DNA of 64,000 bases, taken from Chloroflexota bacterium (GTDB lineage Bacteria; Chloroflexota; Anaerolineae; Anaerolineales; Villigracilaceae). The stretch's first letter is position 1; each line of letters begins with the position of its first letter. The notes below the pieces were generated by a model. That model saw only the letters and a program-made list of their open reading frames with translations. It ran no database searches and had not been told where the DNA came from. Location of the stretch: contig JAIOAU010000003.1 in NCBI GenBank assembly GCA_019873655.1, forward strand, positions 124,001 through 188,000, read 5' to 3'. The position numbers and the translations under genes are program-made. Below, one piece after another: positions 4,346 through 12,978 of the stretch.

Positions 4346-5293
4346 ATGACCCACGAAACGGCTCAAAAAGAAAAACGTTCCGTTGCAGCGATCTCCGTCC
4401 TTGCGGCGGTGGGATTGACCGCCTTCAAACTCATCGTCGGCCTGCTGACCAACTCGCTGGGCATCCTGGCCGAGGCGGCCCATTCGGGGCTGGACCTGAT
4501 CGCGGCGGCGATGACCTATTTTGCAGTCCGCGTCTCGGACCGCCCCGCCGACCGAAGCCACCTTTTCGGGCATGGCAAGGTCGAGAATCTGTCGGCGCTG
4601 TTCGAGACCCTGCTGCTGCTGGCCACCTCCGGCTGGATCATCTACGAGGCCATCGACCGTCTGTTCTTCCACCCGGCGCAGGTGGAGGCTTCGGTCTGGG
4701 CCTTCGTGGTGATGGGGACTTCGATTGTCATCGACATCAACCGCTCCAAGATGCTCTACAAAGCAGCCCGAAAGTACAACAGCCAGGCGCTGGAGGCCGA
4801 CGCCCTGCATTTCCGCACCGACATCTGGTCGTCGTCGGTCGTCATCGTCGGCCTGATCGGCGTGACAGCGGCCCGCTTCGTCCCCGGCCTGGACTGGATG
4901 CACGCCGCCGACTCGATCGCCGCCCTGGTGGTGGCGCTGATCGTCATCTACGTCAGCGGCGAACTCGGCTGGCGGACCGTCTCCGCGCTGATCGACGCCG
5001 CTCCCCCCGGCATGGCCGAGAAGATCGAACAGGCCGCGGCGGCCGTGCCGGGCGTGATCGACGCCCACGCCGTGCGCATCCGCCCCTCGGGAGCGCGCTG
5101 GTTCGTGGACATGCACGTCACCATGGACGGCAATTCGACCCTCAACGAAGCCCACGCCGCCACGGAAAAGATCGAGGCCGCGGTGCAGGAATTCATGGCC
5201 CAAGCCGATGTCACCGTGCATGTGGAGCCGACAGAAACCCAACAAGGCGGCCCCGCCTCCCCCCGGCGCGCCTCCCGCCGCAAAAACCAATAA
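4346..5293 (+). CDS. Cation diffusion facilitator (CDF) metal transporter
   Basis: Exports divalent metal (Zn, Fe, Mn or Co class) in exchange for protons across the cytoplasmic membrane. At 315 residues it has the usual CDF size. Six transmembrane segments are followed by a cytoplasmic ferredoxin-like domain (about residues 215-295). The TM2 metal site is visible in AAHSGLDL (HxxxD) and the TM5 site in ALHFRTD (HxxxD); HxxxD in both places is most often associated with Zn/Cd specificity. The family loop word HLFGHGK follows TM2. The C-terminus ends in a short Pro/Arg-rich tail. It has its own -10 element and is followed by 324 bp of non-coding sequence. Confidence 0.9.
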   Translation: MTHETAQKEKRSVAAISVLAAVGLTAFKLIVGLLTNSLGILAEAAHSGLDLIAAAMTYFAVRVSDRPADRSHLFGHGKVENLSALFETLLLLATSGWIIYEAIDRLFFHPAQVEASVWAFVVMGTSIVIDINRSKMLYKAARKYNSQALEADALHFRTDIWSSSVVIVGLIGVTAARFVPGLDWMHAADSIAALVVALIVIYVSGELGWRTVSALIDAAPPGMAEKIEQAAAAVPGVIDAHAVRIRPSGARWFVDMHVTMDGNSTLNEAHAATEKIEAAVQEFMAQADVTVHVEPTETQQGGPASPRRASRRKNQ

Positions 5294-5416
5294 CCTCAGG
5301 CGTTCTCGCGCGCCGAGACGGGCAACGGCCGCGCCAGCCGATTCGATGACCGCGGCCGCCCGTTCAGCAGCCAAGAGGTCGGCGACCCGCCTCCCAAGCC
5401 GAAAAAACGACAAAAT

Positions 5417-5430
5417 ATGACAGGTGTCAT
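5417..5430. promoter_or_regulatory. Palindromic operator candidate upstream of aminotransferase promoter
   Basis: ATGACA-GG-TGTCAT: 6-bp perfect inverted arms with a 2-bp centre, 22 bp upstream of the -35 element at 5453. The position fits an activator or repressor site. No regulator in the window can be tied to it. Confidence 0.35.
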
Positions 5431-5452
5431 GTTCTTGCAACGATGATTTGTC

Positions 5453-5481
5453 TTGCATTCCGCATCTAAAACCGGTAAGAT
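5453..5481 (+). promoter_or_regulatory. Sigma-70-type promoter of aminotransferase leader
   Basis: TTGCAT (5453-5458) and TAAGAT (5476-5481) are separated by exactly 17 bp. A start of transcription at about 5488 would put the leader ORF (ATG at 5491) almost at the 5' end of the mRNA, i.e. nearly leaderless translation. Confidence 0.6.
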
Positions 5482-5490
5482 AAAGAGGCA

Positions 5491-5538
5491 ATGACCAAAA
5501 CACGCGGTCTGATCCTGTTAGACATCTTGTTACGATGA
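5491..5538 (+). CDS. Leu/Ile-rich 15-residue leader peptide
   Basis: A 15-codon ORF starting MTKTRG and continuing LILLDILLR, then TGA. Leu and Ile make up 7 of 15 codons, with five Leu codons (CTG, CTG, TTA, TTG, TTA) clustered in the second half. It lies between a promoter and an intrinsic terminator-like hairpin (5556-5588) directly ahead of an aminotransferase gene, the arrangement of branched-chain amino acid attenuators. The ATG is only about 3 nt after the predicted transcription start, so it would be translated as leaderless or from the weak GAGG 2 nt upstream. Coding status is inferred from composition and position. Confidence 0.55.
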   Translation: MTKTRGLILLDILLR

Positions 5539-5555
5539 CCCAAGAGGCCATCAAG

Positions 5556-5588
5556 CCTGGTAGGTGAAGTGTACCTGCCAGGTTTTTT
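5556..5588 (+). terminator. Leader attenuator (intrinsic terminator)
   Basis: CCTGGTAGGT (5556-5565) pairs with ACCTGCCAGG (5573-5582) across a 7-nt loop (one G-T wobble) and is followed by six T residues. It lies 17 nt past the leader-peptide stop and 29 nt before the aminotransferase ATG, so it should end transcription before the gene unless prevented. A competing pairing of AGGC (5545-5548) with GCCT (5555-5558), plus ACC/GGT, could act as antiterminator; that part is weak. Confidence 0.7.
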
Positions 5589-5617
5589 GTCCATAACACC
5601 ACACCAAAGGAGATAGA

Positions 5618-6844
5618 ATGGAAACACCCTGGGAGTATCGCTATGCGAACCGCACCAAGCGCATGGGCAGTTCTGTCATCCGCGAACTTCTCAAATTGAC
5701 CGAACAGCCGGACATCATTTCCTTCGCTGGCGGCCTGCCGGCTCCGGAGGTCTTCCCCGTCAAGAAATTCCAAGAGGCCTGCAACATCGTCCTCGAAACC
5801 ATGGGAGCGCAGGCGCTGCAATACAGCACCACCGAAGGCTACCGCCCCCTGCGAGAAATGATCGCCCGCCACACCGCCCGCTACAGCGTCAACGTGGACC
5901 CGGACAATATTCTCATCACGTCGGGGTCTCAGCAGGCGCTCGACTTCATCGGGCGCGTCTTCATCAACCAGGGCGATCACATTGTGGTCGAATCGCCCAC
6001 CTATCTGGGAGCCATTCAGGCCTGGAACGCCTACGGCGCGCAGTACATCTCCGTCCCCTCCGACGAACACGGCATGATCGTGGACGAACTCGAGAAGGCG
6101 CTGCGCATCGGGCCGAAATTCATCTACGTGCTCCCCAACTTCCAAAACCCGACCGGCACCACCCTGGCGCTCGAACGCCGCAAACAACTGGTCGAACTCG
6201 CCGACCGCTACGGCGTGCCCATCATCGAGGACGATCCCTACGGGCAACTGCGCTACGAGGGCGAACACCTGCCCTCGGTGGTGATGCTCGATAGCCAGCA
6301 TCAGGGCAACAACGGCCACACCTACAGCGGCAACGTCATCTATATGAGCACCTTCTCCAAACTACTGGCCCCCGGTTTGCGTCTGGCCTGGGTGATTGCG
6401 CCCAAAGAGGTCATCCGCAAACTCGTCCAGTCCAAACAGGCCGCCGACCTGCACACCGCCACCTTCAACCAGGTCGTCGCCTACGAGGTCGGCAAGGGCG
6501 GCTTCCTGGACGAACACGTCAAGGTCATTCGCGCCACCTACAAAGAACGCCGCGACGTGATGCTCGAAATGATGGCGGAGGTCTTCCCCTCCGAGGTGCG
6601 CTGGACTCATCCAGAGGGCGGCATGTTCCTGTGGGGCATCCTGCCCGAAGGCATGGACGCGGCCGAGGTGCTCAAGAGAGCCATCGAATACAAAGTGGCC
6701 TTCGTCCCCGGCGGCCCCTTCCATCCAAACGGCGGCGGCGAGAACACCATGCGCATCAATTTCTCCTACTCCAATCCAGAGGTCATCCGCGAGGGCATCA
6801 CCCGCCTGGGCAATGTGCTCAAGGAACTGATCGTCAAAAAATAG
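5618..6844 (+). CDS. PLP-dependent aminotransferase, class I/II (LysN/2-aminoadipate type)
   Basis: Transfers amino groups between an amino acid and a 2-oxo acid using pyridoxal phosphate. 408 residues, the usual fold-type I size. The Schiff-base lysine is K248 in TFSKLLAPGLRLAW; other family words are SFAGGLPAPEVFP, ITSGSQQALDF and PNFQNPTG. This subgroup (LysN, aromatic and leucine-accepting enzymes, MocR C-terminal domains) has broad specificity. The leader peptide upstream is Leu/Ile-rich, so I infer that a branched-chain amino acid, probably leucine, is a physiological product. AAAGGAG provides a good Shine-Dalgarno. Monocistronic: a strong hairpin follows at 6880. Confidence 0.9.
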   Translation: METPWEYRYANRTKRMGSSVIRELLKLTEQPDIISFAGGLPAPEVFPVKKFQEACNIVLETMGAQALQYSTTEGYRPLREMIARHTARYSVNVDPDNILITSGSQQALDFIGRVFINQGDHIVVESPTYLGAIQAWNAYGAQYISVPSDEHGMIVDELEKALRIGPKFIYVLPNFQNPTGTTLALERRKQLVELADRYGVPIIEDDPYGQLRYEGEHLPSVVMLDSQHQGNNGHTYSGNVIYMSTFSKLLAPGLRLAWVIAPKEVIRKLVQSKQAADLHTATFNQVVAYEVGKGGFLDEHVKVIRATYKERRDVMLEMMAEVFPSEVRWTHPEGGMFLWGILPEGMDAAEVLKRAIEYKVAFVPGGPFHPNGGGENTMRINFSYSNPEVIREGITRLGNVLKELIVKK

Positions 6845-10233: not shown

Positions 10234-12978
10234 TCAGCCCTTTTCGAACGCCAACAATTTCCAGACCGCCCCCGGCTCCGGCAAGTGAACGCGCAGAAGA
10301 CGCCGGCCGCGGGCGCTGAGGGCGGCGTAATCGCCCAACGCCTGACAGCGCTGAAGAACCCCAAACGTGACCCCCTGCCCCGGAATTTCGACGTCTTCGA
10401 CGGGATCGGCGGTGATTTGCAGGAACAGCCCGGTGTTTGGCCCGCCCTTGTGCAACTGCCCGGTCGAGTGCAGGAAGCGCGGCCCAAAACCGACCGTCGT
10501 CGCGCAGCCGGTGCGGGCGCGCAGTTTCAGACGCAACTCGGTCAGGGCGGCGGTCATCTCGTCCGTGCGCGGCAGGTAGGCGTTGATCGCCACATAATCG
10601 CCGGGGCGGGCGGACTGCACAAAGGCCTCCCACAGGACGGCCAGATCGGCCCGTTTCCCCGTCTCCGCCGCGTAGACCCGCAGACCATCCCCCTCCCAGG
10701 CCGGTTCGCCCTCCTCCAGCCGTTTCGTCTGGCTATACGCAGACAACATGGCTTTGGTGCGCTCTTTGTTATCCTGCACATCGGGCTGATCGAACGGATT
10801 GACCTTCAGCAGGGCGCAGGCGTAGGCGGTGGCCATCTCCCAGCGGTAGAACTCCGGAATCAAGGCGTAGGCGTTCGGAATGGAAAACTCCAGCACCGGA
10901 TGCCCGGCCTCGCGCAGTCGAGCGACCGCGGCCTCGTGCTCGCCCGTCTGACGCAGATAGACGAACAGGCGGTCGTCGCCATAATCGGACGGCGCGCCAA
11001 TCGGCTCGCCGTCCACGACGACGATTCCCTTCCCCTCCTTGCCGGACGACTCGGCGATCAACTGCTCGAGCCAGGAGCCAAAGGGTTGGACGGGCGCGTC
11101 GGCGATGAGGGTCAGTTTGTCGCGCCCGCTCAGGGCGGCCTCGCCCAACGCCGCCCCCAGGACCAGGCCGGGGTTGCGTCCGCCCTCGACCTCCGGCCTG
11201 CACTGCGAGGCCATGCGGGCGGCTTCCTCGAGCATCGTCTCCAGGTCCAGCCCAAGCAGCGCCGCCGGGACCAGGCCAAAATGAGTCAGGGCCGAGAAGC
11301 GCCCGCCGACGGACGAATCCGCCAGGAAAGTCTTGCGGAAGCCGCGGGCGTCCGCCAGGGCGTCCAGCGAGGTGCCGCGGTCGGTAATGGCGGCAAAATG
11401 GTCGCCCACCTTCGGCCCCAGCCTCTTTTCGCCCAGCGCCCAGAAATAGTGCAGCATGGCCGTGACTTCGGCCGTCCCGCCCGATTTGCTGGAGACGAGA
11501 TAGAGCGTCTCTTCCGGCGGGAAGCGCCGCGCCGCCTCCAAGACCTGGGCCGGGTCGGTGGAATCGAGGATGGCGAAATCGAAGTCCGGCCGCTTGCCGA
11601 AGACCAGGGCGAAGACCTCCGGCGCGAGCGAGGACCCGCCCATGCCCAGCAAGAGCGCCTTGCGCAACCCTTCCCGGCGGATAGCGGCCGCGAAGCCGTT
11701 GATTTCGCCCACGAAACGGCGCGAGGTCTCTGGCAGGGTCACCCAGCCCAGGCGCTGACGAATCTCTTCCTGGCCGGCCGGGTCCGAGGTCCACAGCGAG
11801 GGGTCCGGGCGGTGCAGGCGGGCGGGGGCGTCGTCGGCCGCCAGGCGGGCCGCGCCGCGAGCGACGGAGTCCGCCAGAGGCCCCAGCGCCGCGACCGCCA
11901 CGGCGCGCCGTTCTTCGATGGTTTTCATCATCGCCGCAAAGGCCTCGGCAAAGGCGCGCACGCCCTCGCTCTCCAATTCTTCCGCCACCTGCTCGATGAA
12001 GATGCCCTGCCCGGCGAGTTCGTCCAGCAGACGGCGGGCGCCGTCCAGGTCGGCGGTCAGGGTGCGGGCGACCGTCCCGTGGTCGCGAAAGGCGTCGAGC
12101 GTCTGGGGCGGGACGGTGTTGACGGTCGCCGGGCCGATCAGTTCGTCCACATAGAGGGTATCCGGGTAGGCGGGGTTTTTGGTGCTGGTCGAAGCCCACA
12201 GCGGACGCTGAATGCGCCCACCAGCCGCCTGCAAACGGGCAAAGCGTTCGCCGCCGAAGACCTTGCGAAATTCCTCGTAGGCCAGGCGAGCGTTGGCGAT
12301 CGCCGCCCGGCCGCGCAGGGGCGAATCGGGGGGCAGCATGGCGTCGATCTTGGTGTCGAAGCGGGAGACGAAGAACGAGGCCACCGAAGCGACCTGCTCG
12401 AGCGGCTGACCGGCCTGCAGACGATCCTCCAGGCCGGAGAGATAGGCGTCCATCACCTCGCGGTAGCGCTGGAGCGAGAAGATGAGGGTGACATTCACGT
12501 TGACGCCCGCCGCGATCAGACGGCGCACCGCTGGCAGTCCCTGACGGGTGGCGGGGACTTTGATCATCAGGTTCGGGTAGCCGACCCGCCGCCAGAGGTC
12601 GAGCGCCTGGGCGACGGTGGCCTCGGTATCGTGCGCCAGGGCCGGGTTGACTTCCAGGCTGACGTAGCCGTCGCCTCCATTCGTCTCGTTGTACAGGCGC
12701 AGGAAGAGGTCGCAGGCGGCGCGGATGTCTTCCAGGGCCAGTTGCCAGAAGATTCGCTCGGCCGTCCAGCCGGCCCAGGCCATCGGGGTGAGCGCCTGGT
12801 CATAGTCGTTGGTGCGGGCGATGGCGGCGTGAAAAATCGAAGGGTTCGAGGTGACGCCGCGAATCTCGCCGCGGGCGATCAAGCGGGCCAACTCGCCGTT
12901 TTCGAGCAGGCAGCGCTGAATGTTGTCGTACCACAAGGACTGACCGAGATCGAGCAATTGTTTGAAACGAGACGACAT
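10234..12978 (-). CDS. tal-pgi: Bifunctional transaldolase / glucose-6-phosphate isomerase
   Basis: Fusion of two central-carbon enzymes in one 914-residue chain. Residues about 1-370 are transaldolase: VTSNPSIFH near the N-terminus and the Schiff-base lysine in PNLMIKVPAT. Residues about 400-910 are phosphoglucose isomerase: LLGMGGSSLAPEV, LVSSKSGGT, GSWLEQLIAESSGKEGKG and a C-terminal histidine in FLHSTGQLHKGGPNTG. The product would interconvert fructose-6-phosphate with glucose-6-phosphate and exchange three-carbon units with the pentose-phosphate pathway. Such fusions are known in several bacterial groups. rpiB lies just upstream on the same strand, giving a small pentose-phosphate neighbourhood. 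Both active sites look intact. Confidence 0.93.
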   Translation of the reverse strand: MSSRFKQLLDLGQSLWYDNIQRCLLENGELARLIARGEIRGVTSNPSIFHAAIARTNDYDQALTPMAWAGWTAERIFWQLALEDIRAACDLFLRLYNETNGGDGYVSLEVNPALAHDTEATVAQALDLWRRVGYPNLMIKVPATRQGLPAVRRLIAAGVNVNVTLIFSLQRYREVMDAYLSGLEDRLQAGQPLEQVASVASFFVSRFDTKIDAMLPPDSPLRGRAAIANARLAYEEFRKVFGGERFARLQAAGGRIQRPLWASTSTKNPAYPDTLYVDELIGPATVNTVPPQTLDAFRDHGTVARTLTADLDGARRLLDELAGQGIFIEQVAEELESEGVRAFAEAFAAMMKTIEERRAVAVAALGPLADSVARGAARLAADDAPARLHRPDPSLWTSDPAGQEEIRQRLGWVTLPETSRRFVGEINGFAAAIRREGLRKALLLGMGGSSLAPEVFALVFGKRPDFDFAILDSTDPAQVLEAARRFPPEETLYLVSSKSGGTAEVTAMLHYFWALGEKRLGPKVGDHFAAITDRGTSLDALADARGFRKTFLADSSVGGRFSALTHFGLVPAALLGLDLETMLEEAARMASQCRPEVEGGRNPGLVLGAALGEAALSGRDKLTLIADAPVQPFGSWLEQLIAESSGKEGKGIVVVDGEPIGAPSDYGDDRLFVYLRQTGEHEAAVARLREAGHPVLEFSIPNAYALIPEFYRWEMATAYACALLKVNPFDQPDVQDNKERTKAMLSAYSQTKRLEEGEPAWEGDGLRVYAAETGKRADLAVLWEAFVQSARPGDYVAINAYLPRTDEMTAALTELRLKLRARTGCATTVGFGPRFLHSTGQLHKGGPNTGLFLQITADPVEDVEIPGQGVTFGVLQRCQALGDYAALSARGRRLLRVHLPEPGAVWKLLAFEKG

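Follow-up and report, generated by a model that had tools for sequence, protein, structure and literature searches.

A conserved leader rich in leucine and isoleucine codons, probably a transcription attenuator, ahead of an aminotransferase gene in Anaerolineales

Why would a short reading frame rich in leucine and isoleucine codons, followed by a strong terminator, lie ahead of an aminotransferase gene that is flanked by a cation-efflux gene and a PIN/TRAM gene and appears to stand alone between them? The question is raised by one locus in the window (by which we mean the whole 64,000-nucleotide stretch of DNA analysed here). The host genome is 99.82% complete (3.04 Mb in 45 contigs), and its nearest named relatives are Anaerolineales. 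An earlier note on this DNA had predicted control by the charging of Leu (or Ile) tRNA, and the conserved Leu/Ile-codon leader, the terminator and an alternative antiterminator argue for that prediction; judging from sequence comparison, we put the probability that the leader acts as a transcription attenuator in which a ribosome responds to the charging of Leu/Ile tRNA at about 0.78.

The leader locus

The features of the locus are as follows.

5453 to 5481, plus strand: promoter, with -35 TTGCAT at 5453-5458, a 17-nt spacer and -10 TAAGAT at 5476-5481 (bases checked).
5491 to 5538, plus strand: leader peptide ORF MTKTRGLILLDILLR, with its ATG at 5491 and its stop at 5536-5538; conserved position, open frame, Leu/Ile enrichment.
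5538 to 5565, plus strand: candidate antiterminator, ACC 5538-5540 with GGU 5563-5565 and AGGC 5545-5548 with GCCU 5555-5558.
5553 to 5588, plus strand: intrinsic terminator, a 14-bp stem of 5553-5566 with 5572-5585, a 5-nt loop and a T-run at 5583-5588; fold of -21.1 kcal/mol.
5607 to 5612, plus strand: Shine-Dalgarno sequence AAGGAG of the aminotransferase, from the sequence.
5618 to 6844, plus strand: class I/II aminotransferase of 408 aa (Pfam PF00155), related to 2-aminoadipate aminotransferase (Thermus LysN) and to an aminotransferase II homologue.

The TTGCAT-17-TAAGAT promoter and the 15-codon ORF with five Leu and two Ile codons, both described in the earlier note, were verified base by base, and the strong terminator that it placed ahead of the aminotransferase likewise stands, on its 14-bp stem, its fold energy, its T-run and its covarying conservation (see below). 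The Leu/Ile codons of the window's leader are codons 7-10 and 12-14. At least seven such codons in an open frame arose in 0.065% of 20,000 shuffles of the leader's own bases, and over both strands of the 64-kb window this is the sole ATG ORF of 10 to 25 codons with at least four Leu and at least six Leu plus Ile in its first 16 residues. The RNA from 5487 to 5594 folds with z = -3.3. A consensus scanner returned no promoter-like site and three terminator-like sites, none of the latter at the leader locus; the promoter and terminator calls made here rest on sequence, fold and orthologs, not on that scanner. No Rfam family matched positions 5250-5750 up to E = 5, and on this absence of a match a T-box or riboswitch identity of the leader was rejected.

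The leader ATG of the window lies 9 nt past the -10 box. Our parse of the orthologous upstream regions favours a gap of 9 nt, and spacing was recounted over 117 regions with that bias dropped and the ATG not assumed: the first ATG fell 8 to 10 nt past the best -10-like hexamer in 84 of the 117 (at 9 nt in 70), against 7.2% for a random-position control. Such a gap leaves hardly any room for a Shine-Dalgarno sequence and implies that transcription would start at the ATG or a few nucleotides away from it, a near-leaderless arrangement that the position of the ATG supports. A survey of leaderless genes reports them in 4 of 12 Chloroflexi genomes, with a signal whose first T is some 12 bp ahead of the start codon (PMC3160421); here the same count gives 15.

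Conservation of the leader, its codons and its helices

Orthologs of the aminotransferase were drawn from named contigs and further genomes, and an ortholog match at E 1e-150 was found in 140 of 152 family genomes. In all, 192 loci were used; removal of one without a start (L226) and of 45 duplicates gave 147 distinct upstream regions, that of the window included. From 78 loci, we excluded 26 from other phyla with 28-39% identity (L091-L116) and the host's own L001-L009; among the genome matches, 100 places were fetched, and matches near a contig end and several distant ones were left out. The layout of -10 box, short ORF and terminator was recovered in 120 of the 147 regions, all from Anaerolineales. 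The -10 hexamer of these 120 is TAAGAT in 89 and TAATAT in 14, hexamers that the parse favours. Among the 27 unparsed regions, two (L021, L022) were matched by the leader model and in one (L045) the leader is visible by eye, so that 120 is a floor. L045 keeps its leader ORF and GTCAG intact and carries an insertion of about 20 nt in the terminator loop, which is why the parser missed it.

A search of 81 genomes with a covariance model built on the leader (R1) gave 40 matches at E ≤2.3e-4, one per genome. By coordinates compared by eye, all 40 lie directly upstream of the aminotransferase; many of these sequences helped build the model. Among the 32 genomes that belong to the order but not to the family, no match was better than E 0.006, which suggests that the element is restricted to one family. 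Further matches at E 4.5e-4 to 0.05 include two at the same aminotransferase gene (G041, G024); the others are scattered, three places being matched on both strands, and for that reason they were taken as generic terminators and rejected as other copies of the leader.

The codon content of the leaders was tallied over codons 2-15, regardless of an intervening stop, in 110 of the 120 (10 were dropped). Leu codons number 418 against 212 ± 13 in shuffles, twice the expectation, and Ile codons 220 against 92 (2.4 times), whereas Val is depleted (64 against 115); because the sequences are related, these shuffle values, like the shuffle and Fisher values given below, overstate independence. Met and Gly are enriched in the same set, and Ser, Tyr, Cys and Thr are depleted. 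Sensing of aromatic residues was rejected, Phe being at the shuffle expectation and Tyr and Trp depleted. Within the peptides, Leu occurs in all 110 and at least two Leu in 108, Ile in 105 and Val in 54; a lack of conserved Leu/Ile codons in orthologous leaders, which the earlier note had named as grounds for refuting its reading, was not observed. In the 57 leaders of standard length, Leu stands at positions 5, 7, 9 and 10 in 39, 24, 34 and 31 cases. One of the 110 leaders has an in-frame stop among its first 12 codons; for the other two frames the corresponding counts are 60 and 14. Taken together, the codon counts suggest Leu as the more constant of the two candidate signals, which cannot be separated from each other.

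Tests of synonymous against non-synonymous change for selection on the peptide were weak (z 1.3-1.7), and changed Leu codons in pairs of neighbours were not kept above the null (0.53 against 0.48 ± 0.06). A single example of synonymous change is seen at Leu residue 7 in three species of the window's genus, where the codon is CTG in the window, TTG in L039 (= L010) and CTA in L085 (= L011). The codons TTA, CTT and CTA are 3.7-5.2 times commoner in leader than in gene (60 pairs), an excess to which the leader's low G+C may contribute.

Downstream of these codons lies the terminator, about 26-102 nt ahead of the gene start. Covariation was assessed in alignment A1, for which 107 leaders were thinned to 89 and 85 were used (L024, L156, L164 and L203 were excluded as doubtful). 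The terminator helix is paired in 92.8% of cells and covaries. The stop codon of the leader ORF has no conserved position, lying before, within or beyond the terminator in the parsed orthologs, and in some relatives the ORF extends into or through it; given this variation, the idea that a stop codon at a constant place masks the antiterminator of all leaders was rejected.

The earlier note had called its candidate antiterminator weak, and in the window it is, with a fold over 5538-5566 of -8.1 kcal/mol and a core helix that 26 of 100 shuffles match in score; across orthologs, an antiterminator is conserved. The ortholog comparison yielded 113 rows, and among the 106 leaders that entered helix scoring an antiterminator-type helix is present by score in 89, where shuffles averaged 22 and never exceeded 32, with 17 (L016, L023, L072 and L080 among them) falling below the score used. 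In alignment A1 the antiterminator is a 5-bp helix of (G/A)TCAG with CTGA(C/T) of the terminator 5' arm, paired in 89.4% of cells. With the structure drawn from one sequence (L140), 14 cells changed on both sides against 6.4 in shuffles, a value that none of 500 shuffles reached, and the covariation score exceeded all 500; on two of the five measures, pairs changed on both sides (2 against 1.5) and further pair types, the observed values were reached by 230 of the 500.

Most orthologs use GTCAG or ATCAG with CTGAC or CTGAT, and the variable base is a G opposite C in 39 and opposite T in 21, and an A opposite T in 14 and opposite C in 4 (Fisher p = 0.0024); three of the four A/C cases (L029, L030 and L038) use TCAGG/CCTGA instead. 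On a rough tree, for which 60 of the 85 rows were usable, the A of ATCAG was gained six times, five of them with T. Some leaders without TCAG have a different helix there: the window and L010 have AGGC/GCCT, and L147 has AGGCC/GGCCT; L011 also has AGGC/GCCT, with a CTCAG further away. What this sequence comparison demonstrates is a shared layout with its codon bias and open frame, together with conserved, partly covarying alternative helices.

Predicted mechanism, rival explanations and known systems

How these parts might work together can be set out step by step. RNA polymerase would start at the leader ATG or a few nucleotides before it, and a ribosome would begin the 15-residue peptide with almost no 5' UTR. 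When Leu-tRNA and/or Ile-tRNA are charged, the ribosome would reach the end of the peptide and cover the 5' strand of the antiterminator; the 14-bp terminator would then form and transcription would halt before the aminotransferase. When they are short, the ribosome would be expected to stall on codons 7-10 or 12-14 and leave that strand free, and the free strand could pair with the lower part of the terminator 5' arm, so that polymerase would read through. The antiterminator has 4-5 bp and a few outer pairs against the 14 bp of the terminator and must therefore work kinetically, and since stop positions vary among relatives, it is the position of the ribosome on the ORF, not a fixed stop, that must matter there.

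We simulated this by folding the nascent RNA of 104 leaders at the stage preceding emergence of the terminator 3' arm; a ribosome masked the 5' part of the RNA, and pairing was counted with upstream partners only. With codon 8, 10, 12, 14 or 16 in the A site, the terminator arm was paired upstream (P > 0.5) in 90, 85, 52, 7 and 0 of the 104 leaders, a result that is partly built in because the mask covers the helix. For the window, the value falls from 0.54 with codon 14 in the A site to 0.02 with codon 16, which is the stop. The simulation fits a scheme in which stalling on the Leu/Ile codons would mean read-through and passage to the end would mean termination. With no ribosome, the arm paired upstream in 66 of the 104, from which read-through would be expected when the leader is not translated, unlike in trp.

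A structured RNA, either a riboswitch or a protein-binding element, could in principle produce the same conservation, the Leu/Ile richness then being a by-product of conserved hairpins. The end of the leader ORF does form a hairpin, mostly GGCAU..AUGCC, which is conserved and covarying (79.2% of cells in the 85 leaders) and dictates the Gly-Ile-x-Met-Pro residues common in the leaders, and the weak pairwise codon tests would suit such an RNA as well. (An outer helix joining this hairpin to the terminator arm was considered and left out of the counts.) However, Leu positions 5, 7, 9 and 10 lie outside the hairpin, frame 0 is free of stops over the first 12 codons in 109 of 110 leaders, and the distances from ATG to hairpin step by 3 nt, with 57 of 63 in phase. 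Rfam offers no match, and the window, which forms a CAUC/GAUG hairpin in place of GGCAU..AUGCC, keeps its Leu/Ile codons all the same. We consider this explanation quite unlikely. The recurrent peptide, about MxxILALxLLGIxMP and often with a terminal Pro-stop, would also be expected of a nascent chain that arrests the ribosome in response to a small molecule, not to tRNA charging, but its terminal residues follow the RNA hairpin, Pro-stop is not general, and positions besides the Leu/Ile and hairpin ones vary, all of which makes such arrest barely plausible.

One further possibility is that the locus holds a promoter and a constitutive terminator under the control of an upstream operator, with a peptide that regulates nothing. 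It is prompted by one more feature.

5418 to 5429, no strand assigned: operator-like perfect dyad TGACAGGTGTCA, upstream of the promoter and recurring across orthologs.

With at most one mismatch, TGACANNTGTCA occurs upstream of the -10 box in 25 of the 120 regions, against a mean of 0.25 and a maximum of 3 for 57 rearranged dyads. Its distances to the -10 box are 45-48 nt (17 regions), 35 nt (2) and 24-25 nt (6), steps of about one helical turn that suggest a DNA-bound regulator. The dyad is strongly non-random and helically phased, and it is probably the binding site of a regulator that acts here too; as the sole means of control it is very unlikely, since it is found in those 25 regions only, whereas the leader, the codon bias and the overlapping helix are far more general. 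The host genome has six exact sites of the dyad against 2 for the pattern read backward. On host contig C19, an exact TGACAAATGTCA at 1501 and a single-mismatch copy at 1479 (L235:1479-1512) lie upstream of an ORF that we take, by resemblance, to encode an Rrf2-type regulator, the exact site being about 80 bp from it; the sites there perhaps serve autoregulation. Many relatives have the operator's TGACAGGT within their terminator 5' arm CCTGACAGGT as well, and the terminator sequence is more conserved than the stem requires.

Attenuation of this sort has well-known counterparts. In the enterobacterial leu and ilv leaders, ribosome stalling on branched-chain codons favours the antiterminator over the terminator, as proposed here; those leaders differ in being longer, in having a Shine-Dalgarno sequence and in having a larger antiterminator. 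The leader described here is real and conserved, and is probably a Leu/Ile-codon attenuator of this known kind, in an order for which we found no earlier description; a literature search of open-licence papers found no earlier account of such a leader in Chloroflexota. It would extend translation-coupled attenuation, from a near-leaderless start, to Anaerolineales, where the target is one aminotransferase gene rather than a biosynthetic operon.

The ilvBNC leader of Corynebacterium glutamicum resembles it in several respects: according to its description (PMC11857589), the peptide has 15 residues (MTIIRLVVVTARRLP) with branched-chain codons, the start codon is one nucleotide from +1, and antiterminator and terminator overlap little, an arrangement termed a fast attenuator there. 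That leader controls acetohydroxyacid synthase and its Val codons matter (PMC11857589), whereas here Val is depleted, the target is an aminotransferase and the host, of another phylum, has no such synthase over the cut-off. The ilvD leader of Staphylococcus aureus likewise combines a terminator with an attenuator peptide that is rich in Leu and contains three Ile codons, and expression rises on Leu depletion; it differs in controlling the ilv-leu operon with a CodY layer on top (PMC5794164). In a study of Actinobacteria (PMC1262725), candidate ilvB, leuS and leuA (LEU element) leaders have short ORFs rich in branched-chain codons, and the ilvB ORFs overlap the terminator, as do many leaders here; the LEU element differs in being a pseudoknot, with a base stem in which Leu codons are paired to the Shine-Dalgarno sequence, whereas here a terminator stands before the gene. 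In the same paper, altering the supposed regulatory codons of the Streptomyces coelicolor ilvB leader is reported to have had no effect (PMC1262725), which means that codon-rich leaders can mislead.

The role of the aminotransferase

If the leader senses Leu/Ile-tRNA charging, what does the enzyme behind it do? The attenuator offers a testable route to substrate assignment in a broad aminotransferase family. The closest PDB structures, at E ≤3e-112, are 1x0m (aminotransferase II homologue), 3aov (PH0207) and 2egy (alpha-aminoadipate aminotransferase), which we take to be Pyrococcus and Thermus (LysN) proteins; 2egy, at 3e-112, ranks slightly below the other two, and similarity of this kind does not fix the substrate. 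Among the 25 NCBIfam families listed for the aminotransferase, none had its cut-off reached. The LysN-type label given earlier is right as a statement of similarity, judging by the match to 2egy; the setting that goes with LysN did not hold up, as no match to LysW (TIGR01206, E 0.001) was found in the host, and a role in lysine synthesis via aminoadipate is consequently unlikely.

Nor does the supply of branched-chain amino acids that the earlier note had suggested, taken as a step of biosynthesis, agree with the gene content of the host, where none of IlvB (TIGR00118), IlvC (TIGR00465) and LeuA (TIGR00973) scored over the cut-off. In control genomes, IlvB and IlvC exceeded it in 14 of 14 each and LeuA in 9 of 14, so that the absence of LeuA, whose model misses the cut-off in five of the 14 controls, carries less weight. 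The enzyme is therefore unlikely to end a de novo branched-chain pathway there. Within a set of 49 genomes, 11 of the 30 from the family had neither IlvB nor IlvC over the cut-off (weaker IlvB relatives occur in two of these, G004 and G014, and incomplete genomes, down to 81%, are among the 11). The leader is present in 9 of the 11; the exceptions are G021, which lacks an ortholog match, and G023, whose gene is cut at a contig end. A match to LysW is absent from all 11. The persistence of the leader where IlvB and IlvC are missing offers a clue to the role of the enzyme in cells that obtain Leu/Ile in another way. That it could be the sole possible branched-chain aminotransferase was ruled out, PF01063, the class IV aminotransferases including IlvE, being matched in 49 of 49 genomes.

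A branched-chain supply role, if it holds at all, possibly does so only as salvage, by amination of salvaged 2-oxo acids. The logic of an attenuator, by which the enzyme is wanted when Leu/Ile are short, fits this better than catabolism. We tentatively suggest, as an idea more doubtful than not, that the attenuator marks Leu/Ile salvage in Anaerolineales having lost the ilv genes (and LysW), with the aminotransferase aminating branched 2-oxo acids that are scavenged or that arise from reductive carboxylation of short branched acids; the gene would then stay under Leu/Ile-tRNA control because little else of the synthesis of these amino acids remains. The alpha subunit of IOR (TIGR03336) scored over the cut-off in 7 of the 11 ilv-lacking family genomes, one of them the host, and in 4 of the 19 that have IlvB and IlvC. 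This is only a correlation, and as IOR itself is known for aromatic oxo acids, it supports the salvage idea indirectly. Elsewhere in the window, on the minus strand at 10234-12978, lies an ORF of 914 aa, presumably a transaldolase fused to glucose-6-phosphate isomerase.
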